Positions 1-18,232 of a stretch of DNA of 23,342 nt are shown here, piece after piece. The notes below the pieces were generated by a model, which was given only the letters and a program-made list of their open reading frames with translations, was not told where the DNA came from and ran no database searches. Each line of letters starts with the position of its first letter. The stretch's first letter is position 1. The stretch comes from an uncultured bacterium. Lineage in GTDB: Bacteria; Actinomycetota; Coriobacteriia; Coriobacteriales; Eggerthellaceae. The DNA lies in contig CANSQW010000002.1 in assembly GCA_947649215.1 (NCBI GenBank), forward strand, positions 1 to 23,342. Reading direction: 5' to 3'. The position numbers and the translations under genes were made by a program.

Positions 1-1436
1 AGGAAGTTGGGCTCGTAGAAGTCGTTGTGGCACAGGCACGGCTCCACGCCGTCGGCGCACACGTCTTCGTAGAGCTCTGCAGCCATGGCAGCCAACTCGT
101 CGAAGTCCTCGAAGGGACGCGTCTTGAGCATCGCCACGATCTCGACGGCCTTCTGGTACACGTCGAAGTCCCAAGGAGATGCCTCGCCGCAGCCGTGCAG
201 ACGACGCGCGATCTCCATGCTGCGGCGCAGATGGTCGTCGTTGTGGTAGTCGAAGGGTTCGCAGCCGTCGATGAAGGCGGATATCTTCCAGCCCTCGACG
301 GCGTCCTCGTGGATGAACGTGTCGTCGATGCCGAGGCGGCGCGCCACGTCCTGCGAGAACGTCTCGCTCTCGCGGTTGATGATCTCGTCGGTGCCGGCTC
401 CCGGATGGCGGTAGACGTAGGTCTTGCCGTCGACGTCAAAGCGGAACGAGAGGTTGGTGAGTCCCTGCTTGATGGGAACGATGGAGCGAATGGCGCCCTT
501 GGCGCAGTCAAGCACTCCGCAGATGTTGTCCATGATGGACGAGTCGACATTGTCGATGAAGTCAGGGTCAAACTCGCGAAGCTCGTCGAGCGAGTCGAAT
601 TCCCAGATGACGCCCTTGTCGTAAGGACGCAGAACCAGCGGGGGCAGCTCGCCTATATGCTCGGCGTAGATGTCTTCCCAGAGCTTCGGCGCCGTCTCCG
701 GATCATCGTAGATGCGGTCAAGCAGCGCGACGAAGGCCTGGGAGAACGCGCGATCCCAATAGGCGTGCCCGAGCATCGTCCAGGAGTGAGAACCCCCCCC
801 CGTGAGGATTTTTACGATGCGACGATCCCACCCCTTGGCGACCATGCAGTACTCATTGGTGTCCCCCTCCTCGAACACCGACGAGTAGTAGCCCGCATAG
901 ACATACGACTCGAAAGGGTTCTCGGTGAAGTAGTCATCCGAGGAGCAGATGTAGGTGTTGCCGAGTTTCTCCCTCACACGCATGATGGACGAGTTGTTGT
1001 TGCGAGCCGTGTATTCGTCATTGACAACGATGCTCACACCGAACTTGTCCTCGAGGTAGAAGAACTCCTCCTTCTTATACCCCACCACTACCGTGATGTC
1101 GCCAATGCCGGCCTCCTGGAGCTGACGGATCTGACGCTCGATGAGCACCTCGCCCCTTACCTTGAGCACACCTTTAGGCCGCTCGTAGGAGATGGGCGCG
1201 AAACGCGAAGAGAGCCCCGCCGCCATGATGACGGCATTGTCGACGCGGTGCTCCTCAAGGGCGTCCTCGCCAAGTTTGGTGATGAAGGCCCCCTCCACCA
1301 GGGCCTCTTCCCTCAGCCCGGCGAGAGCCTTGTTGACTGCTCCCAAGGAGACGCCGATGGCCTCGGAGATTATCCGCTGGGTTGCCCCTGCGTTTTTCCT
1401 CAAGAAGCAGAGGGTGTCGAACTCTATCTGATTCAT
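1..1436 (-). CDS. Winged-helix / LicC-like nucleotidyltransferase / LicA-like kinase fusion (3' end cut by window edge)
   Basis: The open frame begins at ATG 1436, preceded by AGAAGG, and runs off the left edge after 478 codons. Residues 1-63 look like a winged-helix DNA-binding domain. Residues 67-300 are a sugar-nucleotidyltransferase-type domain with the N-terminal motif MAAGLSSRF (71-79) followed by RPKG (86-89) and an SSDD metal-site candidate (165-168). From about residue 310 there is a choline/ethanolamine-kinase-like domain with the Brenner-type catalytic motif HNDFYEPN at 470-477 (Asp472). LicA phosphorylates choline and LicC makes CDP-choline from it; a LicC-LicA fusion is known from Treponema denticola. 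The extra N-terminal DNA-binding domain also occurs in the neighbour at 1564-2463, so the two genes are paralogous. A G9 tract (793-801) encodes Gly213-215. Choline is the default substrate guess, but ethanolamine or another amino alcohol is possible. The domain calls are secure; the substrate is not. Confidence 0.85.
   Translation of the reverse strand, partial: MNQIEFDTLCFLRKNAGATQRIISEAIGVSLGAVNKALAGLREEALVEGAFITKLGEDALEEHRVDNAVIMAAGLSSRFAPISYERPKGVLKVRGEVLIERQIRQLQEAGIGDITVVVGYKKEEFFYLEDKFGVSIVVNDEYTARNNNSSIMRVREKLGNTYICSSDDYFTENPFESYVYAGYYSSVFEEGDTNEYCMVAKGWDRRIVKILTGGGSHSWTMLGHAYWDRAFSQAFVALLDRIYDDPETAPKLWEDIYAEHIGELPPLVLRPYDKGVIWEFDSLDELREFDPDFIDNVDSSIMDNICGVLDCAKGAIRSIVPIKQGLTNLSFRFDVDGKTYVYRHPGAGTDEIINRESETFSQDVARRLGIDDTFIHEDAVEGWKISAFIDGCEPFDYHNDDHLRRSMEIARRLHGCGEASPWDFDVYQKAVEIVAMLKTRPFEDFDELAAMAAELYEDVCADGVEPCLCHNDFYEPNF
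793..801. repeat. Mononucleotide tract (G9 on the coding strand) inside the LicC/LicA fusion gene
   Basis: Nine C on the plus strand, so nine G in the coding strand, encode Gly213-215 within the nucleotidyltransferase domain. Gaining one G would give a stop about 25 codons later; losing one would give a stop about 45 codons later. Either change removes the kinase domain. This and the tract at 17559-17567 are the longest mononucleotide runs in the window. Confidence 0.9.
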
Positions 1437-1459
1437 TGCCCTTCTCTTTCCTCGCTCGT

Positions 1460-1506
1460 AAACTTGTTCATTCTACTATAAGAACTGCCGAAAAATGAAC
1501 AAGTTT
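1460..1506. promoter_or_regulatory. Perfect 13-bp inverted repeat, candidate operator of the LicC/LicA fusion gene
   Basis: AAACTTGTTCATT (1460-1472) is repeated exactly as its reverse complement at 1494-1506, with a 21-base spacer. It sits 24 bases upstream of the minus-strand start codon and flanks and overlaps the predicted promoter. A second, similar palindrome lies at 5924-5965. The encoded winged-helix domains of the two adjacent nucleotidyltransferases are natural candidates to bind it. It is not a terminator: there is no short loop and no clean T tract. Confidence 0.75.
1475..1502 (-). promoter_or_regulatory. Sigma-70-type promoter for the LicC/LicA fusion gene
   Basis: Reading the minus strand, TTGTTC (1502-1497) and TATAGT (1480-1475) are 16 bases apart. 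The -35 box lies in the upstream arm of the palindrome and the expected start site falls in the downstream arm. A bound protein on either arm would block initiation. The fusion gene may therefore be transcribed separately from the upstream transporter genes. Confidence 0.6.
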
Positions 1507-1563
1507 CCAACAGATCGAGGGCAGAACGCCTAAGAGCGTCTCAATCTCCCCTTCTTCCTGGCC

Positions 1564-2463
1564 CTATAGACGGTATGCGGGATCTATCTTCTGCAACTCG
1601 GCGAACGTATCGATCTCCACGAGGTCTTCCCGTCTGCACTCGCGGATCGTCACGCGATAGCGATCCTTGCAATAGCGCAGAGGCACCTCATCCCAGTAGC
1701 GTTCCTTACCGCCCGGCATCTCGATCACCTTGGGAATATCCTCGGCGAGCTTGCGACCGTCCTCTTCCGTCCAATAGGAGATACCGCACATCTGATGGCA
1801 GTTGAGCCCGCCGACCGCCATGGAGTCGATGGCGCCATGCTTCACATAGAAGCACCAGTCATCAGTTCGCTCCACGGCGAAGGCTAGGTAGTTCGTCTCG
1901 TACTGATACTTCGTGATCAGCCGGGGATTCGCGAGCAGGATGTCCGACTCCAGCACATAGGCGTTCTCGAGCAGCCCGCTGGCGGCGAGAGCCGATGAGA
2001 TGTTGTTAGCCTCGTTGTAGATCTCGTTCTCAATGAACTTCACATTAGGGTAGCGATAGCGCAGCTGGTCGAACTGCTCGCCGAGGTACCCACGCACAAC
2101 GTAGACTTCCTCAATGTCCGCCGCCTCGAGCGCGTCGAGGAGCGAGTCGATGATCCGCTTCCCCCTTACACGCACCAGCGGCTTGGGGGTATTGAGCGTG
2201 ATGGGAACCATGCGCTCGCCGAAGCCGGCAGCGATGAGGATGGCACGCCGCACTCGGTAGGGCTCCAGCGCTTCTTTCCCCTTCTCGGTCAACGCCATCT
2301 TGTCCAGGAGGCCATCCTCCACCAGGGAGGCGATGAGCTTGTTGACAGAGCCGACGGAAAAACCGGTCGCCGTCGCAAGATCGCGCTGGGTGAGCCTCTC
2401 CCCCACGCTCCCCTCGATCAGCTCAAGTAGCTTGAATTCCTTCGCGGTAAGGTTTCCGCTCAT
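1564..2463 (-). CDS. Winged-helix / LicC-like cytidylyltransferase (NTP transferase) fusion
   Basis: The protein has 299 residues; ATG 2463 follows AAGGAAGGAAG. Residues 1-65 form a winged-helix domain (recognition-helix region GFSVGSVNKL). Residues 73-299 are a nucleotidyltransferase with the motif LIAAGFGERM (76-85), TPKP (92-95) and a likely metal-binding ESD (172-174). It resembles LicC, which makes CDP-choline from CTP and phosphocholine. The related PntC enzymes activate 2-aminoethylphosphonate for surface glycans. It aligns over its whole length with the first part of the gene at 1-1436 but lacks the kinase domain. It could therefore use a substrate that is already phosphorylated or a phosphonate, possibly brought in by the ABC importer encoded 11 bases upstream. 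The DNA-binding domain suggests an enzyme that also acts as a regulator; that is inference. Confidence 0.8.
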   Translation of the reverse strand: MSGNLTAKEFKLLELIEGSVGERLTQRDLATATGFSVGSVNKLIASLVEDGLLDKMALTEKGKEALEPYRVRRAILIAAGFGERMVPITLNTPKPLVRVRGKRIIDSLLDALEAADIEEVYVVRGYLGEQFDQLRYRYPNVKFIENEIYNEANNISSALAASGLLENAYVLESDILLANPRLITKYQYETNYLAFAVERTDDWCFYVKHGAIDSMAVGGLNCHQMCGISYWTEEDGRKLAEDIPKVIEMPGGKERYWDEVPLRYCKDRYRVTIRECRREDLVEIDTFAELQKIDPAYRL

Positions 2464-2474
2464 CTTCCTTCCTT

Positions 2475-4073
2475 TCAGGCAGACGCCGGCAGCCCGGCCC
2501 TGCGCATCAGCAGCCTCTTGACGCCGGCGAAGAGCGCCTTAAAGACGATATTAGTCAAAAGCACGAGAAGCGACACGAATGCAGCGCACTCAGTAAGACG
2601 CTGGGCGTCAAAATCGGTGATCAGCAGCGCGAGTGGCATATCGAGGGTGGTAGCGAGGAATGCCACGGCCGAGATGGTGACCATGCAGTTCACAAAGAAG
2701 AACGAGAACATCTCCAGAATGGTTCCCGCGGTCTGGGGGACGAGGACGTCCTTCAGGATGCGCCAGCGGCTCGCGCCGATAGTCGCACCGACCGCCTCGA
2801 GGTTAAGGTTCACCTTGCCAAGCGCGTTATAGGCAAGAAGGTAGGGCGAAGCGAAGAAATGCACGATGTTGACGAGCACGAGAATGCCGAGCGTGCCGTA
2901 GAGGAAAGACCCCTTGAAGGCGAACACATAGGAGAGGCCGAGCACGATACCGGGAATGGCCAAGGTGGTTATGCACGCCAGATGCAACACACGTGCGGAC
3001 TTACCTCCCACGCGCGCGGTGATGTAACCCGCCAGGTAGGCGAGCGACGTGCCGATGAGCGACACGGCCAAGGCGATGGCAAGCGAGTTGAGCCAGTATG
3101 CACCCGCATTCAAGTTCATCGAGCGCCCGATGTTCCCCAGCGTGAACGAAAGATCCAGCGGATACTTCACAACGAAAGACACCAGCACGAAGACACAGAT
3201 CGGCAGGAGAATGGCCACTGAGACGGCCCCCACCGCAACATAGCCAGCGAAGTCGCGACGCCGATCCTCACGGATGACGCGCGCCTTCCTCACGAAACCG
3301 AGGCGCCCTCGATCCTGATTTAACACGTCTACGAGAAACGCCACCACAGCCGGCAGCAGGAGGACGAAGCCGATGGAAGCGCCCGTGTCGAAGTTGAGCA
3401 GACCTATTACCTCCTGGTACATGAGCACTGGAAGCGTGATGGTCTTGCCGCCCACCATAAGGGGCACGCCATAGTCTGTCACCACGAGGGTGAACGTGGC
3501 AAAGGCAGCGGATATGAGCGGTTTGCGCAGATACGGGAGCGTGATGCCAGCGAACTGGCTCAGCTTGGGGATGCCCAGCACATCGGCGGCCTCGTAGGGC
3601 GAGGCGTCCTCGTTCTTGAGCACGTCGTACACCAGCAGGAACGCGGAGGGAAAGGAATACAGCACGGCGCCGATTACGATCCCCCAGAAGCCATAGATGG
3701 AGACGTCAAGCCCCAGCAGGTTGGTAATAATCCCGTTCGACCCGAGCAGAAAGACCAGGCCCATGCCAAGGCCGAGCGAGGGAATGAGCATGGGAAGCGT
3801 CATCAGGACGGCAAAGGCGCCCTTCCCCCGGATGTTCGTACGGCAGAACACCCATGACACGAGCAGCGCAATGCTGAGCGACAGAAGCATAGCGATGAGG
3901 GCGATGCTCACCGAGTTGAGGCAGGCGGGCAGAAATTGAGGCGAGCTAAATACCTCCCACGCCGCAGGATCGAGCAGGCTGGCAAGGAGCCCGCAGAGGG
4001 GAAGCACTGCGGCGACGAGGAAGAACAGCACCAAGGCGATGCGGGTCAGACTGATTCCCTTTGAGATTCCCAT
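2475..4073 (-). CDS. ABC transporter permease, double-length FbpB / aminoethylphosphonate-type
   Basis: This integral membrane protein of 532 residues has about twelve hydrophobic segments. It is two fused copies of the binding-protein-dependent permease domain: a first EAA loop near residue 161 (EAADVLGIPK) and a second near 426 (LEAVGATIGASRW). Both are the cytoplasmic loops that touch the ATPase. The duplicated layout is typical of ferric-iron (FbpB/AfuB) and some 2-aminoethylphosphonate importers. It lies seven bases after the ATPase gene and eleven before the nucleotidyltransferase gene, so all are probably co-transcribed. ATG 4073 has only a weak AGGTAGG upstream, which fits translation from a polycistronic mRNA. 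The substrate cannot be read from the sequence, but the LicC-type neighbours favour a phosphoryl amine or aminophosphonate over iron. Confidence 0.88.
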   Translation of the reverse strand: MGISKGISLTRIALVLFFLVAAVLPLCGLLASLLDPAAWEVFSSPQFLPACLNSVSIALIAMLLSLSIALLVSWVFCRTNIRGKGAFAVLMTLPMLIPSLGLGMGLVFLLGSNGIITNLLGLDVSIYGFWGIVIGAVLYSFPSAFLLVYDVLKNEDASPYEAADVLGIPKLSQFAGITLPYLRKPLISAAFATFTLVVTDYGVPLMVGGKTITLPVLMYQEVIGLLNFDTGASIGFVLLLPAVVAFLVDVLNQDRGRLGFVRKARVIREDRRRDFAGYVAVGAVSVAILLPICVFVLVSFVVKYPLDLSFTLGNIGRSMNLNAGAYWLNSLAIALAVSLIGTSLAYLAGYITARVGGKSARVLHLACITTLAIPGIVLGLSYVFAFKGSFLYGTLGILVLVNIVHFFASPYLLAYNALGKVNLNLEAVGATIGASRWRILKDVLVPQTAGTILEMFSFFFVNCMVTISAVAFLATTLDMPLALLITDFDAQRLTECAAFVSLLVLLTNIVFKALFAGVKRLLMRRAGLPASA

Positions 4074-4080
4074 GGCGCGC

Positions 4081-4848
4081 CTACCTATCCATAAAGCGGG
4101 CGAGGGAGTCCATCTTGATCCGCAGGTTCTTGTTCACGAAGTCCGCCACGTACTCGTCAGCCGGATGCGCGATGATCTGCTCCGGGGTGTCGAGCTGGTG
4201 AATTTCCCCGCCGCCCATCACCATGATGCGGTCGGAGAGTGCGAAGGCCTCCTCCTGGTCATGGGTGATGTAGATCATCGTCGTGCCGAGCCGCTCCTGG
4301 ATATCCTTGAGTTCTGCGCGCATGGAAAGGCGCGTCTCCACGTCAAGGGCACTCATAGGCTCGTCGAACAGGATGATTTCCGGCTCCAGCACGAGGGTGC
4401 GCGCGATGGACACGCGCTGCTGCTGGCCGCCCGACAGCTCGTGGATCGGCTTATCGATCTGTGCAGACAGGCCGAGCTGGGCAAGCGCCTTCTCCGCGAT
4501 CTCACGACGGCGATCCTTGCGCTCCTTGTCGAACTTGAGCGCATACTCCACGTTACCGCGAACCGTCATATTCTCGAACAGGGCGTAGTTCTGGAACACG
4601 ATGCCCATGGATCGCTGATCCGGCGCTGCGTCTGTGACGTCGACGCCGTCAAGGAGGACGGTGCCAGCGTCAGGCTCGAGCAGGCCGATGAGAATACGCA
4701 GCGTGGTGGTCTTCCCGCAGCCCGAGGGGCCGAGGATGGAGAGGAACTCGCCGTCAAGGACGTCAAAGTCGATGCCGTGAAGCACTCCCTTACCATCGAA
4801 GTTCTTCTTGAGCCCGCGAACGGACAGCTTTGGGGTCAACGTCGTCAT
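4081..4848 (-). CDS. ABC transporter ATP-binding protein (FbpC/PotA-like)
   Basis: With the start at ATG 4848 the protein has 255 residues and every ATPase motif. Walker A is GPSGCGKTT (40-48), the Q-loop glutamine is Gln86, the signature is LSGGQ (138-142), Walker B is ILFDEP (159-164) and the switch histidine is His196. I prefer ATG 4848 to an in-frame GTG at 4860 because the GTG lies directly against AAGGA with no spacing. ATG 4848 overlaps the stop codon of the binding-protein gene by one base (TGATG), a usual sign of translational coupling. There is little room for the C-terminal regulatory domain found in longer MalK/PotA relatives. It would power import through the double permease encoded next. 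Confidence 0.92.
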   Translation of the reverse strand: MTTLTPKLSVRGLKKNFDGKGVLHGIDFDVLDGEFLSILGPSGCGKTTTLRILIGLLEPDAGTVLLDGVDVTDAAPDQRSMGIVFQNYALFENMTVRGNVEYALKFDKERKDRRREIAEKALAQLGLSAQIDKPIHELSGGQQQRVSIARTLVLEPEIILFDEPMSALDVETRLSMRAELKDIQERLGTTMIYITHDQEEAFALSDRIMVMGGGEIHQLDTPEQIIAHPADEYVADFVNKNLRIKMDSLARFMDR

Positions 4849-5867
4849 CAGTACTTCCACTCCTTCAAAAGACGCTCCTTCTCCTCAAGATCCCTGATGC
4901 CTTCCATGTCGGCATAGACGATATCGCTTGGGTAGTTCTCGATCTCCCCCTTGAAGTCGCGGAGAACCTGGTCAGCGCTGAAGTTGGCGTTATCCAGCTT
5001 CACGCCCTCGGTAGCAAGCCAGCCGAACACGTCCATGACGGCCTGCTTGTCCTGCTTGCCCTCGATGACGCCGATGGAGTACACGTCCCACGGCGACCCC
5101 TCCTCGAAGAAGTGGATGGAGAGCGGGATGCCCTGGTTGATCTCGGTGACAGCCTGAAAGGTAAGGCCGAGCCCGATGGCCGCCTCGCCCTGAACGAGGG
5201 CGTTGATAGGGCCCGAGCCCGAAGCGGTGAACTGGTAAACGTTGTCGGCAAGCTTGTCGAAATAGGCCAGAGCCTCATCCTCGCCATAGGCGTTCACCAG
5301 GCTCTTGAGGAAGTTGTAGGCTGTGCCTGAGGTCTTGGGATTAGCCATGCAGATGAGCCCCTTGTACTGCGGGTCGAGCAGATCCTCGTAGCTCTGGGGA
5401 ACCGGCAGCCCCTTTTCCTCCAGAATCTTGTCGTTAACGGCCACGCAGGCGCTCTCGCGGGCAAACGGAACCGACTTGCGCGTAGGATCGACCAGATCCT
5501 CCGCGTAGATGTCCATATCAGTGTCGGGCAGACACGCAAGAGCTTCGGATACCTGTCGTGTGTACCCACCTTCAAGGTCGAAGACGATGTCGGCCTCGGA
5601 GCCCGTTCCCTCCGTCTTCAACCGCGCAGCGTTGTTGCCCGTGGGCAGATAGCGGAGCCGAATGTCGTACTGGGGGAATTCCTCATGAAGCGCACCCATA
5701 ATTGCCTCGTTGCGCATGCCCTCGGCACTCGAGTAGATGATCACAGTGTTCCCATTCGAAGATGGCACGCACCCCGCTAGGGCCGCCATGAGCATAGCAG
5801 TGAGGGAGCCCAGGAACACCAGGCGCAACCTGCTGCCGCGCCCGCTCAACATCGAAGTGCTCCGCAT
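4848..5867 (-). CDS. ABC transporter substrate-binding lipoprotein (family of iron / aminoethylphosphonate binders)
   Basis: From ATG 5867, which follows AGGAGG by ten bases, the protein has 339 residues. A basic N-terminus, a hydrophobic core and the lipobox LAGC (Cys33) mark a membrane-anchored lipoprotein. A longer frame from a TTG at 5921 is less likely because it lacks a ribosome site and would put a polar stretch before the signal. The mature part starts with VIIYSSAEG and contains PKTSGTAYNFL and FTASGSGP, characteristic of the Fbp/Phn-type binding proteins. No adjacent tyrosine pair is visible, as would be expected for classic FbpA iron sites, so a non-iron ligand is plausible. It is first in the importer operon, and a palindromic control region lies just upstream. 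Confidence 0.87.
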   Translation of the reverse strand: MRSTSMLSGRGSRLRLVFLGSLTAMLMAALAGCVPSSNGNTVIIYSSAEGMRNEAIMGALHEEFPQYDIRLRYLPTGNNAARLKTEGTGSEADIVFDLEGGYTRQVSEALACLPDTDMDIYAEDLVDPTRKSVPFARESACVAVNDKILEEKGLPVPQSYEDLLDPQYKGLICMANPKTSGTAYNFLKSLVNAYGEDEALAYFDKLADNVYQFTASGSGPINALVQGEAAIGLGLTFQAVTEINQGIPLSIHFFEEGSPWDVYSIGVIEGKQDKQAVMDVFGWLATEGVKLDNANFSADQVLRDFKGEIENYPSDIVYADMEGIRDLEEKERLLKEWKY

Positions 5868-5923
5868 AGCCAAACATCCTCCTCGCACCCGCAGGCCCCT
5901 CTCAGGGCCCGTCGCAGGCAATC

Positions 5924-5965
5924 TGTGTTCATAATTTTACAAATTTATATAATTTTATGAACACA
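5924..5965. promoter_or_regulatory. Inverted repeat and AT-rich promoter region of the importer operon
   Basis: TGTGTTCATAA (5924-5934) is mirrored exactly at 5955-5965 with a 20-base AT-rich spacer. The TTCAT cores are 29 bases apart, against 28 in the palindrome at 1460-1506, so the same regulator could read both. Minus-strand promoter choices are TTCATA-16-TAAAAT or TTATGC-17-TATAAA. Both would place RNA polymerase across the palindrome. The transcript leader to ATG 5867 would be about 55 bases long. Confidence 0.65.
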
Positions 5966-6010
5966 AGCATAACGCATTGTTCGATATATGAGAACCAGGA
6001 TGTCTTTTTT

Positions 6011-6047
6011 GAACAAAAAACCGGAGCCTTTGCAGGACTCCGGTTTT
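6011..6047 (-). terminator. Rho-independent terminator of the rfb operon
   Basis: The arms AAAACCGGAG (6017-6026) and CTCCGGTTTT (6038-6047) form a ten-pair stem, extended by CCT/AGG inside the loop. On the minus strand the stem is followed by a run of T. It lies 29 bases past the stop codon of rfbC and separates the rhamnose operon from the importer operon. Confidence 0.85.
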
Positions 6048-9641: not shown

Positions 9642-12554
9642 TTAGTAGCTAAGCACCGTCGTCCGCGAGGGGATGTTGTCGTAGATCCACTTCGCGTGAT
9701 CGATGTTCAGACGAACGCAGCCATGGGATACCTGCCGGCCCAGCGTTCCGTCCTGGATCACGCGCGTACCCTGGTTGTACAAGACGGAGTGGAACAGATA
9801 GTTGCCGTAGAACTGCGTCCAGTAATAGCACGAGTACCCGCTTCCGAAGACATAGCCGCGGGTGCCCACCGAGTAGAGGCCCTTGACGGTTGGGGTGCGT
9901 GGCGCACCGGGCCCGCACGACCAGTAGGCGATGTTCGTCCAGTTGCCCCTCGACCCCTTGTAGATACCGATAAAGCAGTTCACGTTATCGATGGCGACGA
10001 GGTATCCCGTAGGACTCGAGAGCAACGCGACGCGGTTGTTCATGGCCCGATACTTGGGCGCAAGCACCTCCGAGGGGTTTACCGAGAAGGAGGTAGAGCC
10101 GATGAACCTGCCGTCCGCGTACACATGCGAGACGCAGCCGCCCGAATGGAGGAGGTTCTGACAGGAGATGTCAGCCCGCCAAAGGCCGCCACCCACATGG
10201 CGGGCGCTATACCAGGTCAGGTCGTCCTGGCCGCCGCTCGTAGACCACGTGGGAACCTGAACCCGAGACGGCGAACCCGCAGGATTGCGCACCCATACCG
10301 TGCGGCTCCCTGAACTGCCCGTGACGAACACATAATTGGTAAGGTTCAGCGTCGTCGAGACCGACCCCACGAACGACGTCACGCCGTTGCCGCCCGTGAC
10401 ATAGGCGTGGGAGACGTAGGATCCCGCCTCTCCGTTATGCCGGTAAGCGGGAATGGTGACGCGATAGCTGCCGTCGCCCTGCCGCACGGCGTCGTACCAG
10501 ACGATGTCGTCCTGGCCGCCAGCAGCCGTCCAGGTGGGAACCATGACGCGAGCCACCCCCGAAGGAGAGCTGATGCCGGAAACCGTCACTGTAACCGTTC
10601 CCGCTCCGTCGTTCTTGGTGGCGGACACCACCTTGGCGGAGACGGGCTTGACGGAGAAGGCCGCCTGCCCGCCGAAGCGAAGGGCGCCCGCAGCCGTCGC
10701 ATAGGCGTGCGCGGCATAGTCGCCTGCGTCGCCATGGGACGATACGGGGATATTCGCCACCCAGACGCCATCGGGGGCACGTCGAGCCGCATGCCAGACG
10801 ATGTCATCCTGCCCGCCGGAAAGCGACCATACCGGGAACGTCACCGAAGACGCCATGGCAAACCAGCCGCCCGAGGCCGTCATCGTCACCGTTTTCTGAT
10901 CCCCTGAGAGCACTGCCGTCACCGCAGCAGGAACGACGCTAACCGAGCCCCTCGTCTCCCCCGCGTAGCCAAAAACCCCGTTGCCCATGGTCACATAGGC
11001 ATGGGCAACGTACTCCCCCACATCGCGCCGAGGATGCGCAAGAGGCACCGTCGCCGCCCATGACCCATCGGATCTTCGAGAAGCGGCGTACCATACAATA
11101 TCGTCTTGCCCACCAGCCGAAGACCAGACGGGGATCTGCACCGAAGAGACGCCCGACGAGGCCTTGATGCCCGAGACAGCCACGGTGAAGACCCCGGCCT
11201 TCTTCTGCGCCTCGGATTGCGAGAGGGAGACCGTCGCACTCGGAGCCGTGACAGAGAAGGAGGTTTCGCCCGCGTAGACTTGCGCACCTCTCACCATCGC
11301 ATAGGCGTGAACAGCGTAGGATCCTGCATCGCCATGAGCTGGAATGGGTATCTTTGCACGCCATACGCCATCAGCGCCCTTGCTCCCCGCGTACCAGGAG
11401 ATGTCATCCTGGCCCCCTACGGCAGACCAGGTGGGAAACAGCACGCTCGAAGCCAGGGAGAACCAGCCTCCCGACGCCGCAACGGAGGCCGTCTTCTGGT
11501 CGGAGGCCAGCGTCACGGAAACCTGCGCGGGCGACAAGGAGACGCTTGCCGTGGCTTGGCCGACAAACGAGAAGAGACCGTTTCCGCACGTGAGGTAAAC
11601 ATGCGCGTTGTACTCGCCCGCCGCCCGCCGCGAGCCAGCGAGGGAGACCTCGACAACCCAGGCTCCGTCAGCACGCCGCTTCGCGTCAAGCCACTCTATG
11701 TCATCTTGCCCACCGGCCGTAGACCATACCGGAACCTGAACACGCGACACCCCCGACGGCGCAGAGACATCCGAAACCGCGACCGTAAAGACACCAGACT
11801 TCTTCTGCGCCTCAGACTGGGAGATCGTCACCTTGGCCGAAGGCGCGGACACCGTGAACGAGGAAGCACCGGCATAGGACTGCGTGCCCCCCTTAGCAAT
11901 GTAGGCATGTACGAGATAGTTGCCTGAGGATCGGTGCGAGGAGACGGGGACGATCGCGCCCCACGATCCGTCAGCGGCTTTCTTTCCAACGTACCAGACG
12001 ATGTCATCCTGTCCGTTTGCGGCAGACCACGTGGGAAACAGAACCGCCGTGGCGCCCGAGGCAGCCGCAGCAGAGAGCTTGACGGTGGCAGTCCTCTCGT
12101 CTTTGGAGAGCACTGCGGTCACAGGGGACGCGGCTGCCTGCTGGTCGAGAGCCTCCTCTTTCGCCGCCGACTGCGGGCCGTCCTTCGCGGCAGGAGCGAC
12201 GGCAGGGGGTTTAGCCGCGTCAGCGGCCTCCCCTGTGGGCTCCTCGTTGTCAGGCTGGACCGTATCGGTGGCATCGCCTGAGGGAGCCTGCGCATCAGGG
12301 GAAGTGACGCCTCCTGGATGGGCGCCCCCTTCATCCTGATCAATCGGGGAAACCGGATCGGCCGAGGGCGCAGCCGCAGGAGGGCGCTGGCCGGCAGGGG
12401 GCTCACCCGCCGAATCGCCCTGCGTCTCGCTCTCGGTGACGGGCGCCTTCCCCCCGGCTCCAACATCTCTCTCATCTGCACTCTGGGCCCAAGCGCATGG
12501 CGTGATGCCAAGTGCAAGCGCAAGCGCGAGCGCAACGATGCCCGTTCTCTTCAT
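9642..12554 (-). CDS. Secreted L,D-transpeptidase (YkuD) with seven GBS Bsp-like repeats
   Basis: The start at ATG 12554 gives 970 residues and a clean signal peptide (MKRTG, then a hydrophobic core to AWAQS); GGGAG lies eight bases upstream. A Pro/Ala/Gly/Glu-rich, probably disordered segment covers about residues 25-150. Seven repeats of about 100 residues follow, each with a core like VWSxxGGQDDIxWY. The YkuD domain occupies about residues 837-970, with His922 (FHSVLYN), His944 and the nucleophile Cys946 in SHGCVRL. Such enzymes make 3-3 peptidoglycan cross-links or attach proteins to the wall. The repeats are presumed to bind the wall. There is no LPXTG anchor or transmembrane tail. The gene follows the amidase gene but a terminator lies between them. 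Confidence 0.92.
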   Translation of the reverse strand: MKRTGIVALALALALGITPCAWAQSADERDVGAGGKAPVTESETQGDSAGEPPAGQRPPAAAPSADPVSPIDQDEGGAHPGGVTSPDAQAPSGDATDTVQPDNEEPTGEAADAAKPPAVAPAAKDGPQSAAKEEALDQQAAASPVTAVLSKDERTATVKLSAAAASGATAVLFPTWSAANGQDDIVWYVGKKAADGSWGAIVPVSSHRSSGNYLVHAYIAKGGTQSYAGASSFTVSAPSAKVTISQSEAQKKSGVFTVAVSDVSAPSGVSRVQVPVWSTAGGQDDIEWLDAKRRADGAWVVEVSLAGSRRAAGEYNAHVYLTCGNGLFSFVGQATASVSLSPAQVSVTLASDQKTASVAASGGWFSLASSVLFPTWSAVGGQDDISWYAGSKGADGVWRAKIPIPAHGDAGSYAVHAYAMVRGAQVYAGETSFSVTAPSATVSLSQSEAQKKAGVFTVAVSGIKASSGVSSVQIPVWSSAGGQDDIVWYAASRRSDGSWAATVPLAHPRRDVGEYVAHAYVTMGNGVFGYAGETRGSVSVVPAAVTAVLSGDQKTVTMTASGGWFAMASSVTFPVWSLSGGQDDIVWHAARRAPDGVWVANIPVSSHGDAGDYAAHAYATAAGALRFGGQAAFSVKPVSAKVVSATKNDGAGTVTVTVSGISSPSGVARVMVPTWTAAGGQDDIVWYDAVRQGDGSYRVTIPAYRHNGEAGSYVSHAYVTGGNGVTSFVGSVSTTLNLTNYVFVTGSSGSRTVWVRNPAGSPSRVQVPTWSTSGGQDDLTWYSARHVGGGLWRADISCQNLLHSGGCVSHVYADGRFIGSTSFSVNPSEVLAPKYRAMNNRVALLSSPTGYLVAIDNVNCFIGIYKGSRGNWTNIAYWSCGPGAPRTPTVKGLYSVGTRGYVFGSGYSCYYWTQFYGNYLFHSVLYNQGTRVIQDGTLGRQVSHGCVRLNIDHAKWIYDNIPSRTTVLSY
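10060..12115 (-). repeat. Seven tandem GBS Bsp-like repeats in the L,D-transpeptidase
   Basis: The codons for GGQDD (NGQDD in the N-terminal copy) lie at 12003-12017, 11700-11714, 11403-11417, 11100-11114, 10803-10817, 10506-10520 and 10221-10235. Spacing is 297-303 bases, except 285 for the last and most diverged copy. Copies alternate between two subtypes: one with a GWF-type lead-in and FPxWS, the other with a SGVxxVQVPVWS lead-in. The array therefore grew by doubling a two-repeat unit of about 600 bases. Confidence 0.9.
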
Positions 12555-12574
12555 GAGAAAGCTCCCTCTCTCCA

Positions 12575-12612
12575 AAAAATGAATTGACGGGGGCATAACG
12601 CCCCCGTCAATT
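12575..12612 (-). terminator. Strong hairpin terminator between the amidase and L,D-transpeptidase genes
   Basis: Thirteen-base arms at 12582-12594 and 12600-12612 (core TTGACGGGGGC) enclose a five-base loop. On the minus strand the hairpin is followed by TTCATTTTTT. It lies 26 bases after the amidase stop codon. Only about 20 bases separate its end from the transpeptidase start at 12554, leaving no room for a separate promoter. The downstream gene probably depends on read-through. Confidence 0.88.
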
Positions 12613-12638
12613 TTATTCCTTCAGCTGAACCTTCAGGC

Positions 12639-15600
12639 CTAGTATTTGGAAAGTTCTTCGATCAACGTCAGGAGTTTCGTACCGTACGCCGGATCGCTCG
12701 CCCACTTTCCCGAAAGGGCGATCACCGTCGTTGCCGATCCCCTCTTGACGAGGTTGAACCGGGGGTCAACGCAGGGGTTGCGCAGGGCGTCCGTCGAGGC
12801 ATAGGCCTTCAGGTGCTGGGTTTGCGCCCGCAGCCCGGTCCTCACGTCGGGGAAGGTAGCAGGACGGGGATTGCTGTCGGTCGCGCCGATGCCTCCGAAG
12901 TTGCACTGATCGGCCTTCACGCTGCTACCCTGGAACTGCAGCCAGCCGGTCTCGAGCATGACCTGGGCAAACAGCACCTCAGGCTTCACGCCCTCCGCCT
13001 TCGCCTCCTCACAGAGGATCGAGCAGAACTTCTCGATGTTATCGGCGCCCTTGGCGGTGTAGACCATTGTCGGATAGGTCTTCCCCTTCGCATTCCACAT
13101 GCGAACCATCTGCGTGACCGAGGCGTTGGAGCTCCCCATTATCCGGTAGTTCAAGCCGTCGACAATGGTCTGGCTTACCGAGAACGAGGTCTCGCCCGCG
13201 TAGGAGCGAACGCCGCCGAGCGTCAGATAGCAGTGAGACGCATATGTTCCCGCGGTCCGGTGGTTCGAGATGGGAACCTGAGCCGTCCAGGTCCCCGTCA
13301 GCGAGTTCTTGGCCCCCAAGTACCAGACAATGTCGTCCTGACCGCCTGCAAGCGACCACGTGGGGAACTCAACCGACGTGGCCCGAGGAAGGTTGCCCCC
13401 CTTGGCGGTTATGGTATAGGAAAGCCCATCGGATGATTTCTGAGCCGAGACAGAGACCGGCGTGGGCATCAGACGGTAGGTGGTCTCGGTCACGAAGCTC
13501 TGGATTCCCGCGCGGTCGGTCGCATAGGCGTGAATCGCATAATCGCCCTGCTGGTAGCCGTGATCGGAGATCCTCACCGTCACGCGATAGCTGCCGTTCC
13601 CCTTCGAGTCCACCGAATAGGGAGCCATGGAGTACCAACGGATGTCATCCTGGCCGCCCACCGTCGTGCACCACACGGGCAGCTGGATCGAGCGAATGCC
13701 GAGGGAGGACGAGACAGACGCCTCAATCACCATGGTACCAGCCGACTGATCCGCGGAAACCACCTTCACCGAGCCGGTGGGACGGGAGACCGTGAAGGAG
13801 GTCTCCCCGACGAACACCTGGCTGCCGCCGAGCATCATATAGCAATGGGCCGCGTACTTACCCGTATCTCCATGCCGAGGGACGGAGACCTTGACGCTCC
13901 ACTCTCCCGTGAGGGAGTTCTTGGTCGCCGGATACCAGACGATGTCGTCCTGGCCGCCATTAAGGGACCAGACGGGAATCGAGACCGAGGCCGCAGAGGC
14001 CAACCGCCCGCCCTTGGCGGTAATCGTGTAGGAGAGGCCGTCGGAAGACGACTTGGCGACCACGGTGGCCGGCGGCAGAGTAAGACGCTGCGACGTGCTG
14101 TCCACGTAGGCTCTGGCGCCGATCTTGTCGGTCACGTAGAGGTGGGCTGCGTAATCGCCCGATTGGTAAGCGTGGTTGGCCATGTTGACCGTAATGCGAT
14201 ACGTCCCACGCCCTAGGGAGTCGACGCTGGTAGGTGACATCGCATACCAGCGGATGTCGTCCTGCCCGCCGACGCTCGAGCACCAGACAGGCAGCTGAAC
14301 CGAGCCGACGCCCACAGGCGACGACACCGTCGCTTGAATGACCATCGTGCCCGCCGACTGGTCGGTAGAGACCACCTTCACCGTGCCTGTAGCGGCCTGA
14401 TGGGTGAAGGAGGCGGAGCCGACGAAACTCTGAGATCCCCCGGCGGTCATGTAGCAGTGGGCAGCATATTCGCCGGCGCTCCCGTGATTTGACAGAGGAA
14501 CCGTGACGCTCCAGCTGCCGTCCAGGGCGTTACGCTGGCCGGGATACCACACGATGTCGTCTTGACCGCCCTCAAGCGACCAGGTAGGGAACGAGACCGA
14601 TACCGCAGAGGCGAGCTTGCCGCCCTTGGCGGTGAGCACCACGCTTCGCCTGTCGCTGGAGAGCGTCGCGGTGACCGCGGCGTTGCTAACCGGCGTCATC
14701 CTCTGGACGACGCTCGTCAAGTAGGTCTGGACGCCCGCCCCGCTCACCACGTAGAGATGAGCCTGGTAGTCGCCGGCCTGCTTTCCGTGGTTCGCCGTCG
14801 AGACGGTAAGGCGATACGTGCCGTTGCCCCGAGAATCGACACTCTTCGGCGACATGGTGTACCAGCGGAGGTCGTCTTGCCCCCCTACCGTCTCGCACCA
14901 GACAGGCAGCTGAACGGCGCTTACGCCCGTCGATGAGGAGACCTGGGCCTCATACGTTATCGAACCCGCCGCCTGATCGGCAGCCACCACCTTCAAGGTG
15001 CCCGTCGGAAGCGTCGTCACCTGCTTAGACAGGCCGTACTGCCGCGCGATTCCCGTCGCATCGGCCACGCCCAGCTTTCGCAGCTTGGACTCGTCGCTCA
15101 GATACAGCTCGTAGTCAAGGGGGCTCGAGATAAACGCATGCTCGACGATGATACCCGGAATGCCGTACTGCCGCGCATAGCGCGTGATGCCGTAATAGTC
15201 GATGGGGTGACCGGAGAGGTCGGTGCCGTCGACGCGGGTCTTCACACCACGGTCGTTGAGGCCGAGCTTCTCCAGCTCATCGAGGATCTTGCTTCCCAAG
15301 GCGGTGCCGACGACGTGGGTGTCATGGTTGTAGTCGGAGCTATTAGGCACCCATACCTCCGCCCCGTTCGCATGGGGGAGATCCGACGAGTTGAGGTGGA
15401 TGCTCACTACGACATCGGCACCTTGGTCGACAGCGCGCTTGACACGATTGTAGATGCTCACCGTCTCGTTCTCAGTCTTCGTCAGGATGACGCGCACGCC
15501 TTGGTAGGCCTCGAGCTCCGCCTTGCAGTAGTTGGCGATCTTCCAGGTGAGAACCTCCTCGCGCGACCCGCTGACCCCCGAGGCTCCAGACTCGGTTCCA

Positions 15601-16451
15601 CCGTGGCCGGGGTCGATGGCCACCACCAGCTCGCCAGCCCTTGACTGGCCGTCGGGGGCGGCCGCGCGGCTCCGGCTCATCGTGCGAGCGTTCTTCGAAG
15701 GCGCGGCCGCCTGGGCGGACTGCTCCAAGGCGTCCTCCATCGAAGACGCCTCCACCACCTCTCCGCTCTCATCCACGGTGAAGAACGAGACGTCATCAGC
15801 ATCAGGGGCCTCAGCGGAGGCAACGGCAATCCCGGCCTCGGAGGACGGGACGATGAGGAACCGGGCGATGTCGCAAGCGCTCAGGTCAAGGGAGACCTCG
15901 CCATCCTCGCCGCGATACGCGATGCTCTTCGCTACCCACTCGCCTGAGGTCCAGCCTTCGGTCGAGAACGAGAACAGTACGGAGGACTCGGTCGCAGCGG
16001 AAGCGGAAACGGCTCGCCTCTCCCCGTCGTTCTCAAGAGTAAGAACAGCCTGGGAAAGCCCCGGCGCTTCCTCGAGGAGGGAAATCGCCACATGCTGCGT
16101 CTCGGGCTGGGAGATGGTCTGCCGGTCAACGTAGACGAAGGAGACGAGGCTCTCGGCGGCAGCGGTCTCGACGGAGGACGGGGAAGTCTCCGGAACCTCC
16201 GAATCAGCCGCCTTCTCGCCCACGGCAGAATCAAGCCCCTCGCCCGCCTCGGATGCCGGGTCGTCCCCCTCGGCAGGAGCCGGTTCCGGCGCCACGGCAT
16301 CTTCCGCCGGAAGGGCCGGATCGCCCACGAGTCCGACGAACTCCGTGACGGCATCGGGCGCCTTATCTCCGAAGGCCATGACCGGGAAGCCGACCCCCGC
16401 AACCAGAAGGAGCGAGAGGGCGCAGGCAAGAAGCTTTTTTGGATCACGCAT
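12639..16451 (-). CDS. Secreted dual peptidoglycan hydrolase: N-acetylmuramoyl-L-alanine amidase + six GBS Bsp-like repeats + glucosaminidase
   Basis: The protein has 1270 residues; GAGG lies nine bases before ATG 16451. A signal peptide (to about residue 26) is followed by an acidic Pro/Ala-rich linker, a small beta-rich segment at about 94-200 and a Ser/Ala linker. Residues 276-472 are an Amidase_3 zinc amidase with His283 (DPGHGG), Glu298/299, His352 (SIHLNS) and Glu437 (VEHAFIS). Six wall-binding-type repeats fill about 482-1095. Residues 1099-1270 resemble a FlgJ/LytG-type glucosaminidase with likely catalytic Glu1167 (MLETGW) and the tail FNLVKRGSATTV. The protein could cut both the peptide and glycan strands, a layout suited to daughter-cell separation. 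It is divergent from the MBOAT gene at 16658. Substrate linkage is inferred from families. Confidence 0.92.
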   Translation of the reverse strand: MRDPKKLLACALSLLLVAGVGFPVMAFGDKAPDAVTEFVGLVGDPALPAEDAVAPEPAPAEGDDPASEAGEGLDSAVGEKAADSEVPETSPSSVETAAAESLVSFVYVDRQTISQPETQHVAISLLEEAPGLSQAVLTLENDGERRAVSASAATESSVLFSFSTEGWTSGEWVAKSIAYRGEDGEVSLDLSACDIARFLIVPSSEAGIAVASAEAPDADDVSFFTVDESGEVVEASSMEDALEQSAQAAAPSKNARTMSRSRAAAPDGQSRAGELVVAIDPGHGGTESGASGVSGSREEVLTWKIANYCKAELEAYQGVRVILTKTENETVSIYNRVKRAVDQGADVVVSIHLNSSDLPHANGAEVWVPNSSDYNHDTHVVGTALGSKILDELEKLGLNDRGVKTRVDGTDLSGHPIDYYGITRYARQYGIPGIIVEHAFISSPLDYELYLSDESKLRKLGVADATGIARQYGLSKQVTTLPTGTLKVVAADQAAGSITYEAQVSSSTGVSAVQLPVWCETVGGQDDLRWYTMSPKSVDSRGNGTYRLTVSTANHGKQAGDYQAHLYVVSGAGVQTYLTSVVQRMTPVSNAAVTATLSSDRRSVVLTAKGGKLASAVSVSFPTWSLEGGQDDIVWYPGQRNALDGSWSVTVPLSNHGSAGEYAAHCYMTAGGSQSFVGSASFTHQAATGTVKVVSTDQSAGTMVIQATVSSPVGVGSVQLPVWCSSVGGQDDIRWYAMSPTSVDSLGRGTYRITVNMANHAYQSGDYAAHLYVTDKIGARAYVDSTSQRLTLPPATVVAKSSSDGLSYTITAKGGRLASAASVSIPVWSLNGGQDDIVWYPATKNSLTGEWSVKVSVPRHGDTGKYAAHCYMMLGGSQVFVGETSFTVSRPTGSVKVVSADQSAGTMVIEASVSSSLGIRSIQLPVWCTTVGGQDDIRWYSMAPYSVDSKGNGSYRVTVRISDHGYQQGDYAIHAYATDRAGIQSFVTETTYRLMPTPVSVSAQKSSDGLSYTITAKGGNLPRATSVEFPTWSLAGGQDDIVWYLGAKNSLTGTWTAQVPISNHRTAGTYASHCYLTLGGVRSYAGETSFSVSQTIVDGLNYRIMGSSNASVTQMVRMWNAKGKTYPTMVYTAKGADNIEKFCSILCEEAKAEGVKPEVLFAQVMLETGWLQFQGSSVKADQCNFGGIGATDSNPRPATFPDVRTGLRAQTQHLKAYASTDALRNPCVDPRFNLVKRGSATTVIALSGKWASDPAYGTKLLTLIEELSKY
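13165..15010 (-). repeat. Six GBS Bsp-like repeats (three A-B pairs) in the amidase
   Basis: GGQDD codons lie at 14871-14885, 14556-14570, 14256-14270, 13944-13958, 13644-13658 and 13332-13346. Spacing alternates near 312-315 and 300 bases. A copies read LPVWCxxVGGQDDxRWYxM, then SVDSxGxGxY. B copies read WSLxGGQDDIVWY, then LxGxW. Each A copy has a cysteine after VW and each B copy has one in HCY. The repeats belong to the same family as those in the transpeptidase. Confidence 0.9.
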
Positions 16452-16657: not shown

Positions 16658-18208
16658 ATGATCTTCTCCAGCTCGACTTTTCTCCTCGTCTTTCTCCCCC
16701 TTACCGTCATCTGCTACTTCCTCGTCCTGGGGCGTGCCTGCAAAAACATCTTGCTGCTCCTCGCTTCCCTGGTCTTCTACGCATGGGGCGAACCGGTCTA
16801 CCTCTTCCTGATGATTGTCTCCATCATCGTGAACTGGGGATTCGGGGTGGCCATTGGCTCCACGCACGGCCCGGCGAGAAAGGCTCTCCTCGCACTCGAC
16901 GTGACGGCGAACCTCGGCATCCTCGGCTTCTTCAAATACGAGGGCTTCCTGGCCGCCAACGTCAACGCGCTCCTCGGACACGCGCTGATACCCGATCTCC
17001 AGCTCCCGCTTCCGATAGGCATATCCTTCTACACCCTCCAGGCGCTCTCCTATGTGGTCGACGTCTACCGCGACGAGGTTCCCCCTCAGCGCAACCCGCT
17101 CTACCTGGGCATGTACATAGCGATGTTCCCCCAGCTCGTAGCCGGCCCCATCGTTCGTTATTCCACTATCCAAGACCAGATACTCCATCGCCACGAGAGC
17201 CTTCGCGACTTCGCCGCCGGCGCGCGCCTGTTCTGCGTGGGCCTCGCCAAGAAGGTGCTCCTCGCCAACACCGTGGCCATCCTCGCCACCAACATGCTGG
17301 CCGAGGGAGGTCCCGCCATCGGGGCGATAGGCGCCTGGGCCGGACTTGCGGCCTACACCTTCCAGATATTCTTCGACTTCTCGGGCTATTCGGACATGGC
17401 CATCGGCCTGGGAAAGATGTTCGGCTTCAAGTACCTCCGCAACTTCAACTATCCCTATATCTCAAGAAGCGTCACCGAGTTCTGGCGACGTTGGCACATA
17501 TCACTCTCCTCGTTCTTCCGAGACTACGTCTACATCCCCCTCGGGGGAAATCGAGTAACCCCCCCCCGTTGGGTTTTTAACTTGGCGGTTGTGTGGCTCC
17601 TAACCGGGTTCTGGCACGGTGCCGCTTGGAACTACATCCTTTGGGGACTCTACTACCTTGCGCTCCTCCTGCTTGAGAAGCTTCTCATAGGACAGTGGCT
17701 GCGCAGGCTTCCCGCCCCCATCCAGTGGGCATACACCGCCCTGGCGTTCATGGGCGGCTGGCTGCTGTTCTGGATCGAGGATCTCTCCGCGATGGGCCAG
17801 TACCTCCTCGCGCTCGTTGGAGCGTTCGGAGCCACGGGCTCCTCCACCTTCTGGGAGCTGGGGGCGTGGTCGTTCATCCCCGTGCTTCTGATGTGCGCCC
17901 TCGCCTCCACGCCTATTGTTCCTTGGCTCAGGGCCAGGGTGGTCGCCTGGACGATCGGGCGCCCGCTCGCGAAGGGGACGTTCATGTCGGACGACCTTCC
18001 CAACACACGGCTCCTCTCCACCGACAGCCTGTGCGACTACGAGGGATACGCGAGCGATGGCGAGCTTAGCGACGCTCCCCGTCGGAGGAAGGTCGCGTAC
18101 GGGGTGGTTCTGCTCGCATCGGACATCGCCCTGGTCGCAATGCTGCTGCTCTCCATCGCCTCCGTGGCATCTGGTTCGTTCAACCCCTTCATCTACTTCC
18201 GATTCTAG
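16658..18208 (+). CDS. MBOAT-family membrane O-acyltransferase (AlgI/PatA/DltB-like)
   Basis: The polytopic membrane protein of 516 residues starts at ATG 16658 after AAGGA. It carries the AlgI-type landmarks: SIGTH-like N-terminal helices, PIGISFYTLQ, FPQLVAGPIVRY, FFDFSGYSDMAIG, FWRRWHISLSSFFRDYVYIPLGG and the catalytic-histidine motif WHGAAWNY (His320). Such proteins pass acetyl groups from the cytoplasm across the membrane to a partner transferase, here encoded by the next gene. After residue about 430 a cytoplasmic-looking loop of some 60 residues precedes a last membrane helix. A C9 tract (17559-17567) encodes Thr301-Arg304 just before His320. The acceptor could be peptidoglycan or a wall polysaccharide; the sequence does not say which. 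Confidence 0.93.
   Translation: MIFSSSTFLLVFLPLTVICYFLVLGRACKNILLLLASLVFYAWGEPVYLFLMIVSIIVNWGFGVAIGSTHGPARKALLALDVTANLGILGFFKYEGFLAANVNALLGHALIPDLQLPLPIGISFYTLQALSYVVDVYRDEVPPQRNPLYLGMYIAMFPQLVAGPIVRYSTIQDQILHRHESLRDFAAGARLFCVGLAKKVLLANTVAILATNMLAEGGPAIGAIGAWAGLAAYTFQIFFDFSGYSDMAIGLGKMFGFKYLRNFNYPYISRSVTEFWRRWHISLSSFFRDYVYIPLGGNRVTPPRWVFNLAVVWLLTGFWHGAAWNYILWGLYYLALLLLEKLLIGQWLRRLPAPIQWAYTALAFMGGWLLFWIEDLSAMGQYLLALVGAFGATGSSTFWELGAWSFIPVLLMCALASTPIVPWLRARVVAWTIGRPLAKGTFMSDDLPNTRLLSTDSLCDYEGYASDGELSDAPRRRKVAYGVVLLASDIALVAMLLLSIASVASGSFNPFIYFRF
17559..17567. repeat. Mononucleotide C9 tract inside the MBOAT gene
   Basis: Nine C encode part of Thr301-Pro-Pro-Arg304 in a variable loop before His320. 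With ten C the frame meets TAA five codons after the tract; with eight C it meets TAA after about a dozen codons. Both outcomes lose the catalytic histidine. Flanks resemble those of the tract at 793-801: AA before, and GT..GG.TTTT after. Confidence 0.9.
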
Positions 18209-18232
18209 ACATCCCCCGAAAGGAGGAAACGC

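Follow-up and report, generated by a model that had tools for sequence, protein, structure and literature searches.

The 23,342-nucleotide window analyzed here is the entire contig C2 of a genome of the class Coriobacteriia that is 56.6% complete. In transcription order, its minus strand encodes a substrate-binding lipoprotein (SBP), an ATPase, and a permease, which together form an ABC importer, followed by two cytidylyltransferases that each begin with a winged-helix domain (wHTH): B, which has no kinase, and A, which has one. An initial sequence-only reading had described an importer followed by two wHTH-led nucleotidyltransferases, the second with a LicA-like kinase, and all five genes were confirmed by domain matches. 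The explanation that best accounts for the whole, and that we consider probable, is a self-regulated salvage operon for phospho-amine decoration. Since each enzyme has its own wHTH and an operator recurs before the genes in many species, the enzymes probably turn their own supply on and off. Sequence comparison demonstrated the anatomy of the system, its conservation, the operator, the covariation of half-site and recognition helix, and the residues linked to specificity. The features at this end of the window are as follows.

3 to 1436, minus strand: A, wHTH plus LicC-like cytidylyltransferase plus LicA-like kinase; the C terminus is cut by the contig edge and continues on contig C32.
1465 to 1501, no strand assigned: operator of gene A, TGTTCA-N25-TGAACA, from a perfect inverted repeat and held-out enrichment.
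1564 to 2463, minus strand: B, wHTH plus kinase-less LicC/PntC-like cytidylyltransferase, from domain matches, predicted fold, and conserved catalytic residues.
2475 to 4073, minus strand: ABC importer permease with two BPD_transp_1 stretches, PhnU2-like, under cut-off.
4081 to 4860, minus strand: ABC importer ATPase, PhnT2-like, under cut-off.
4848 to 5867, minus strand: SBP, PF13343, with the fold of a phosphate-ester binder; start set at ATG 5867.
5926 to 5963, no strand assigned: operator of the importer operon, TGTTCA-N26-TGAACA, a perfect inverted repeat.
5978 to 6015, no strand assigned: second operator-like inverted repeat with one mismatch.

In the proposed mechanism, the SBP, ATPase, and permease would import a ready phosphorylated or phosphonate amine, either phosphoethanolamine or 2-aminoethylphosphonate (AEP), which B would couple directly to CTP. 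In parallel, the permease EutH would import ethanolamine, which A would phosphorylate and then activate to CDP-ethanolamine. LicD-type transferases would put the resulting group on a surface glycan made by neighboring genes. Both promoter regions, that of the importer operon and that of A, contain inverted TGTTCA half-sites spaced by roughly three turns of the helix, and the wHTHs of A and B would bind there. Binding would most likely depend on whether the attached catalytic domain contains substrate, CTP, or CDP product, which would give feedback on uptake. The sign of this regulation is probably repression.

The association of importer and enzymes was conserved. A survey for B matched a pattern in 76 stretches, 34 of which were confirmed as named B loci; these span Eggerthellaceae, Oscillospiraceae, Lachnospiraceae, Erysipelotrichaceae, other Firmicutes, and one Spirochaetales genome. 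Loci L032 to L065 were sampled for holding B and most other loci for holding A, and A-type proteins had matches in 153 of 396 genomes. The sequence-only reading had asked for conserved co-occurrence of the importer with wHTH-LicC proteins and would have been contradicted had such importers almost never lain beside LicC-like genes. The outcome was the opposite, with the importer adjoining B in 23 of the 34 named loci (gene order permuted, once divergent) and 19 of 20 SBP matches (E <= 1e-40; 392 genomes of the class searched, 16 with a match) lying in a locus with A or B. The operon arrangement is not a product of chance, since other genera, Firmicutes, and a spirochaete genome have it as well.

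The possibility that importer and B always occur together was rejected, as 11 of the 34 named B loci lacked the importer. In two of these 11, a gene of the organophosphate antiporter (GlpT) family within the MFS transporters precedes B in the importer's place (one matching GlpT 1pw4 at 1e-26; PgtP model scores of 160 and 159 bits, under cut-off), and in one there is a PotABC-like importer. This last locus (L127:4531-9906) has a wHTH B-type enzyme beside the PotABC-like importer and an operator ahead of B. When the SBP was sought in the genomes of 10 of the 11 importer-less B loci and in 2 controls, a high score was obtained in the controls only; weak matches were found in G424 and, as a second match, in control G433. 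A separate arrangement was seen in genus g65, which belongs to another family (L284 to L287, L292, L293), where the operon runs A-SBP-ABC-permease-B-glycosyltransferase; neither LicB nor EutH was found near these operons, and their A is choline-type by the residue described below.

B and A each have a wHTH (HTH_24 over cut-off) and an NTP_transf_3 domain, and they matched the LicC structure 1jyk at 2.1e-24 and 7e-39, respectively. The structure prediction that had been suggested as a check was carried out for B, and the AlphaFold2 (AF2) model (pLDDT 92.6) was closest in fold to LicC and then to PntC. B contains a LicC/PntC signature of the type GxG(S/T)Rx4-8PK (AAGFGERMVPITLNTPK in the window, conserved in alignment A1), and its catalytic residues are conserved at LicC positions 107 (Asp107) and 216 (Glu216). 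Of 68 B rows, 67 have Glu at LicC position 105, window B included, the only Asp105 being that of L127; Glu was also found in 4 of 4 ppm-linked PntC proteins, and A has mostly Ser. In the excerpts on which this and later citations draw, the AEP amine in Tde-PntC has Glu104 close by, at the place that Asp105 occupies in LicC (PMC6697681), and window B thus has the Glu that marks AEP-specific PntC. Of the residues that mark phosphocholine-specific LicC (Asp105, Asp192, and an aromatic box), B differs at 105 and retains Asp192, Trp136, and Tyr190. In a midpoint-rooted tree of 62 rows, for which 28 of 66 B and 29 of 128 A sequences were sampled, B and ppm-linked PntC of the same class clustered with a support of 94, apart from A; the placement of LicC was unsure because of its long branch. 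Some of the ppm genomes in this tree are presumably Olsenella uli and Atopobium rimae.

Phosphoenolpyruvate (PEP) mutase, linkage to which is a mark of PntC, had matches in 15 of 396 genomes, 14 of them over cut-off. No TIGR02320 match was found in the window's own genome, at its 56.6% completeness, and none of the 16 importer genomes (392 drawn) was among the 15 with PEP mutase matches (396 drawn), most non-matching genomes being unnamed in the results. Because a wHTH and an importer are present and importer genomes gave no PEP mutase match, B probably serves salvage rather than synthesis. The earlier proposal that the kinase-less enzyme takes a ready phosphorylated or phosphonate ligand is thus supported by the PntC-like Glu, by the grouping with PntC, and by the organophosphate antiporter that replaces the importer in two loci.

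For the fused enzyme, a free amino alcohol had been proposed as substrate, and the neighbors of A agree with this. A matched the choline kinases 3dxq and 4r77, and among 137 A genes the permease partner was LicB in 68, EutH in 21, and an ethanolamine permease in 8 (one was tested and scored over the TIGR00908 cut-off), with none found in 40. The rest of the window's operon is on contig C32, the end of which is identical to the first 55 bases of the window in the same orientation. This contig (L290:6496-9228) holds the C terminus of the kinase (C32:8857-9228, with APH and Choline_kinase matches), EutH (NF011668, 655 bits against an equivalog cut-off of 575; PF04346, 1.5e-122), and a second SBP that is 76% identical to the first. 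The order A, EutH, SBP2 was found on single contigs in G052 and G053, and also in G054, where about 4 kb separates EutH from SBP2. LicC position 136 was Trp in 92% of 65 LicB-linked A proteins and Tyr in 88% of 17 EutH-linked ones, window A included. Window A is therefore most likely an ethanolamine kinase/cytidylyltransferase.

The main alternative assigns both the importer and B to phosphocholine, with B acting as a LicC and CDP-choline or mixed CDP-amines being made by two routes. LicC is the nearest solved structure of B, the Trp136 and Tyr190 of the choline box are retained, LicB-linked relatives of A are common, and seven importer-linked A genes are choline-type. Yet the position 105 Glu and the clustering of B are those of PntC, and the aromatic box is not decisive because Ari-PntC keeps it and prefers AEP (PMC6697681). 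When neighbors within 6.5 kb were counted, B was also present for 20 of 30 A genes having an ethanolamine permease (window A being placed with the EutH group on account of C32) but for only 5 of 68 with LicB, and for 23 of 39 with neither; Fisher tests on these counts, and on the covariation counts below, take no account of relatedness. We therefore regard the phosphocholine alternative as unlikely.

In the window, perfect inverted repeats were found before the importer operon (TGTTCA-N26-TGAACA) and before A (TGTTCA-N25-TGAACA), with half-site centers 30 to 32 bp apart. Sixty held-out A loci, all of them tested, were scanned over a 290-base upstream window with at most 1 mismatch allowed; the perfect sites of some of these loci were already known from an earlier listing. 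TGTTCA-N24-26-TGAACA was present upstream of A in 40 of the 60, perfect in 27, compared to 16 sites in 715,533 bases elsewhere in these loci, or 0.0065 expected per window. Dinucleotide shuffles had a site in 12 of 3000 cases. A looser scan for GTTC-N25-29-GAAC found sites at 84 of 104 A genes versus 0.053 expected. For operons in which the neighbor of B is an importer, an antiporter, or a PotABC-like importer, 37 loci were collected and 3 cut by a contig edge were dropped; among the remaining 34, which include close relatives, the operator was upstream of 23, perfect in 14, with 0.017 expected per 380 bases. Ahead of an operon-internal B domain, no TGTTCA/TGAACA pair was among the matches listed. 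In the window's own assembly, 2 of 5 perfect sites are the window operators and the other 3 are GC-rich; in G052 and G053, 3 of 6 and 3 of 5 perfect sites are AT-rich and correspond to the SBP1, A, and SBP2 promoters, the remainder being GC-rich. By eye, the left half-site of the window A operator overlaps a -35-like element and TATAGT stands just before the right half-site, a placement that suggests repression; a promoter scan gave 2 hits versus 1.5 in shuffles. Tandem operator copies, 38 to 74 bases apart from start to start, were seen upstream of A in L143, L153, L156, L158, L161, L175, and L176, and these may allow cooperative binding.

The recognition helix of the wHTH covaried with these half-sites. 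From 138 rows, 14 that were unreadable or short were removed and 124 were used. The majority of A proteins have the helix SLGxVN with GTTCA half-sites, and one A clade has GLATVN or GVATVN with GTTCG half-sites. With Gly helices the arm bases were G 23 times, A once, and C or T 8 times; with Ser helices the respective numbers were 12, 244, and 10. Mostly-G arms were found for 9 of 10 Gly-helix genes versus 1 of 102 others. The newly retrieved Gly-helix loci L198 and L203 fitted this pattern, and L226, L227, L230, and L202 fitted it partly. L167 has a Ser helix inside the Gly clade, and its arms have 3 A to 1 G; the tree requires one gain and one reversal of helix type, both with matching half-sites. 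Both helix types occur in G053, Ser in the A of the importer operon and Gly in an A next to LicB, and each of these genes has the operator type that goes with its helix. Paralogous circuits with differing helices and half-sites (Ser/TTCA, Gly/TTCG) were observed in G053 (L038, L150) and G096 (L051, L168).

This covariation indicates that the fused wHTH probably reads the operator, and together with the operator itself it favors the earlier proposal that the attached wHTH controls the operon. Alternatively, the operator could belong to another transcription factor, with the fused wHTH only oligomerizing or being vestigial. The pairing of wHTH and operator comes from sequence comparison, and perfect copies of the pattern turn up elsewhere in these genomes as well, mostly in GC-rich surroundings. 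Nevertheless, the Ser or Gly of the helix covaries with the A or G of the half-site even in the reversal inside the Gly clade, the sites follow these genes across families and phyla, and they precede whichever gene is first in many permuted operons. This alternative is distinctly unlikely in our judgment.

Control of uptake by the enzymes themselves, which we favor over a separate factor, leaves the ligand of the importer to be considered. The AF2 model of the SBP (pLDDT 90.7) had as its seven best folds entries of three proteins, the glucose 6-phosphate-binding VcA0625, AfuA, and the pyridoxal phosphate (PLP)-binding P5PA, with ferric binders ranking after them. VcA0625, AfuA, and P5PA were again on top in a profile search, and FbpA- and PotD-type matches were weaker. 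By closest fold and sequence the SBP is not an FbpA-type protein, since phosphate-ester SBPs outrank ferric binders. In our judgment of the alignment, the SBP retains the SGT phosphate loop and a following Ser of the phosphate-ester importers AfuABC and P5PA, the roles of these residues being taken from PMC4546632 and PMC8427247, whereas the sugar-contacting His205/Asp206 of AfuA is Phe/Gln in the SBP, suggesting that this is not a hexose-phosphate site. Ferric iron as the imported ligand was rejected on fold and profile ranking. The sequence-only reading would have fallen had the binding protein taken iron or a polyamine only, and the predicted fold points the opposite way, the top seven structures being those of proteins described as binders of sugar phosphate or PLP. 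That the importer takes iron or a polyamine and lies beside LicC-like genes incidentally is very improbable: the FbpA- and PotD-type matches and the PotABC-like importer of L127 point that way, but phosphate-ester binders are best by both profile and fold, and the importer is linked to A and B and shares their operator.

The properties of the SBP and of B instead favor, as the imported ligand, a primary amine in phosphorylated or phosphonate form, either phosphoethanolamine or AEP. This assignment depends on these two proteins because importer-linked A genes of both kinds occur; EutH accordingly says little about the imported ligand, and A does not fix it. The idea that EutH fixes this ligand was dropped because seven importer-linked A genes are choline-type. 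Between the two candidates, the kinship of B with PntC favors AEP, and B-type domains located behind kinases favor phosphoethanolamine. The latter were found in L043, L044, L045, L047, L048, L049, L053, L055, L056, L057, and L058, in frames of up to 921 codons, four of them near an ethanolamine permease or EutH; one 895-amino-acid fusion has HTH_24, two nucleotidyltransferase stretches, and APH/Choline_kinase. A-type matches were also observed within 1159-amino-acid open frames (G213:C7:314695, G166:C121:83570, G391:C62:3136).

A number of results weigh against the salvage operon as proposed. The importer had been assigned to the iron/aminoethylphosphonate type, and the best models were indeed TIGR03261 phnS2 for the SBP (151.8 bits versus a cut-off of 392.75), PhnT2 for the ATPase (294.9 versus 457.7), and PhnU2 for the permease (379.5 versus 593.25); because no curated cut-off (TIGR03261/3262/3265) was reached, the assignment holds as a family resemblance only. 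Trp136, the choline-type residue, was found in all 6 importer-linked A proteins of g65 and in A of L037, and no permease or LicB was found beside these seven genes. Of the 137 A open reading frames, 11 have a B-type domain fused after the kinase, with no importer in the fetched stretch, which means that the product of a kinase can also serve B-type domains as substrate. One importer (L289, in G315) had neither A nor B in the fetched stretch, and the isolate of one antiporter locus (L134) has a separate importer-B locus (L120, cut by a contig edge). The strict site was missing in 20 of the 60 held-out loci, some with looser variants and some with none seen, and 11 of the 34 importer, antiporter, or Pot operons lacked the operator, as did the region directly before B in the other 8 importer-less named B loci. 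The covariation rests on two events, and as A and B both bear a wHTH, either of them could act at a given site.

Toward its far end the window contains LicD and further glycan genes, and the following features complete the list.

6015 to 6045, minus strand: terminator-like hairpin and T run behind rmlC, identified by eye, with a loop that exceeds the limit of the hairpin scan.
20647 to 21552, minus strand: LicD-family transferase (PF04991, 2.6e-45), candidate transfer enzyme of the same glycan locus.

Between these, positions 9642 to 16451 of the minus strand encode two large wall proteins with many GBS_Bsp-like repeats: 7 in an L,D-transpeptidase and 6 in an amidase plus glucosaminidase. Positions 16658 to 19483 encode an MBOAT acyltransferase and then a DHHW protein that matches AlgX weakly, which are perhaps an O-acetylation pair of the glycan locus.

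The system was compared to those described in the excerpts cited. In the Lic-1 pathway, LicA is the kinase, LicB the permease, LicC the cytidylyltransferase, and LicD the transferase (PMC10434233). The chemistry of A is similar, with a permease, a kinase, CTP activation, and LicD nearby, and many A relatives lie beside LicB; unlike Lic-1 as described there, each cytidylyltransferase has a wHTH, there are a common operator and an ABC importer for a phosphorylated ligand, and EutH stands in for LicB. NadR combines a helix-turn-helix domain, nicotinamide mononucleotide adenylyltransferase, and riboside kinase and is an NAD-dependent repressor of nadA-pnuC and other genes (PMC7221760). A places its regulator, nucleotidyltransferase, and salvage kinase domains in this order within a single chain and, by analogy, would share the logic of controlling a transporter operon, the operator here being known by comparison only. 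The pathway and ligand are unrelated, and the likeness is of logic and not of descent, with no membership by sequence claimed. For AEP, carriage by PF13343 SBPs and a GlpT-related permease is described in the AepXVW, AepSTU, and AepP systems (PMC8316502), and both transporter types were found next to B; those systems were studied for growth on AEP, whereas here uptake would be tied to CTP activation. A described wHTH-LicC regulator was not among the matches listed in full-text literature searches, for which the subscription literature was mostly outside reach.

Phospho-amine decorations shape the encounters of bacteria with host immunity, lectins, and phages, and to our knowledge their supply and control in gut Actinomycetota and Firmicutes have been little described. 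A broader reading, which we offer tentatively and place just short of an even chance, is that wHTH-cytidylyltransferases form a widespread class of enzyme-repressors, which sense the state of their own catalytic domain and govern the uptake of surface phospho-amines, that paralogous circuits within a genome are insulated by one helix residue (Ser with TTCA, Gly with TTCG), and that the importer is a kinase-bypassing route for ready phosphoethanolamine or AEP into CTP activation. The analysis yields a testable circuit with a defined operator, matched paralogous regulators, and an importer with a narrow ligand prediction, as well as residues that appear to separate ethanolamine from choline enzymes. 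If the proposal is true, the NadR-type design, a single chain that unites regulator, nucleotidyltransferase, and kinase, would have a second natural example, here in an unrelated pathway.

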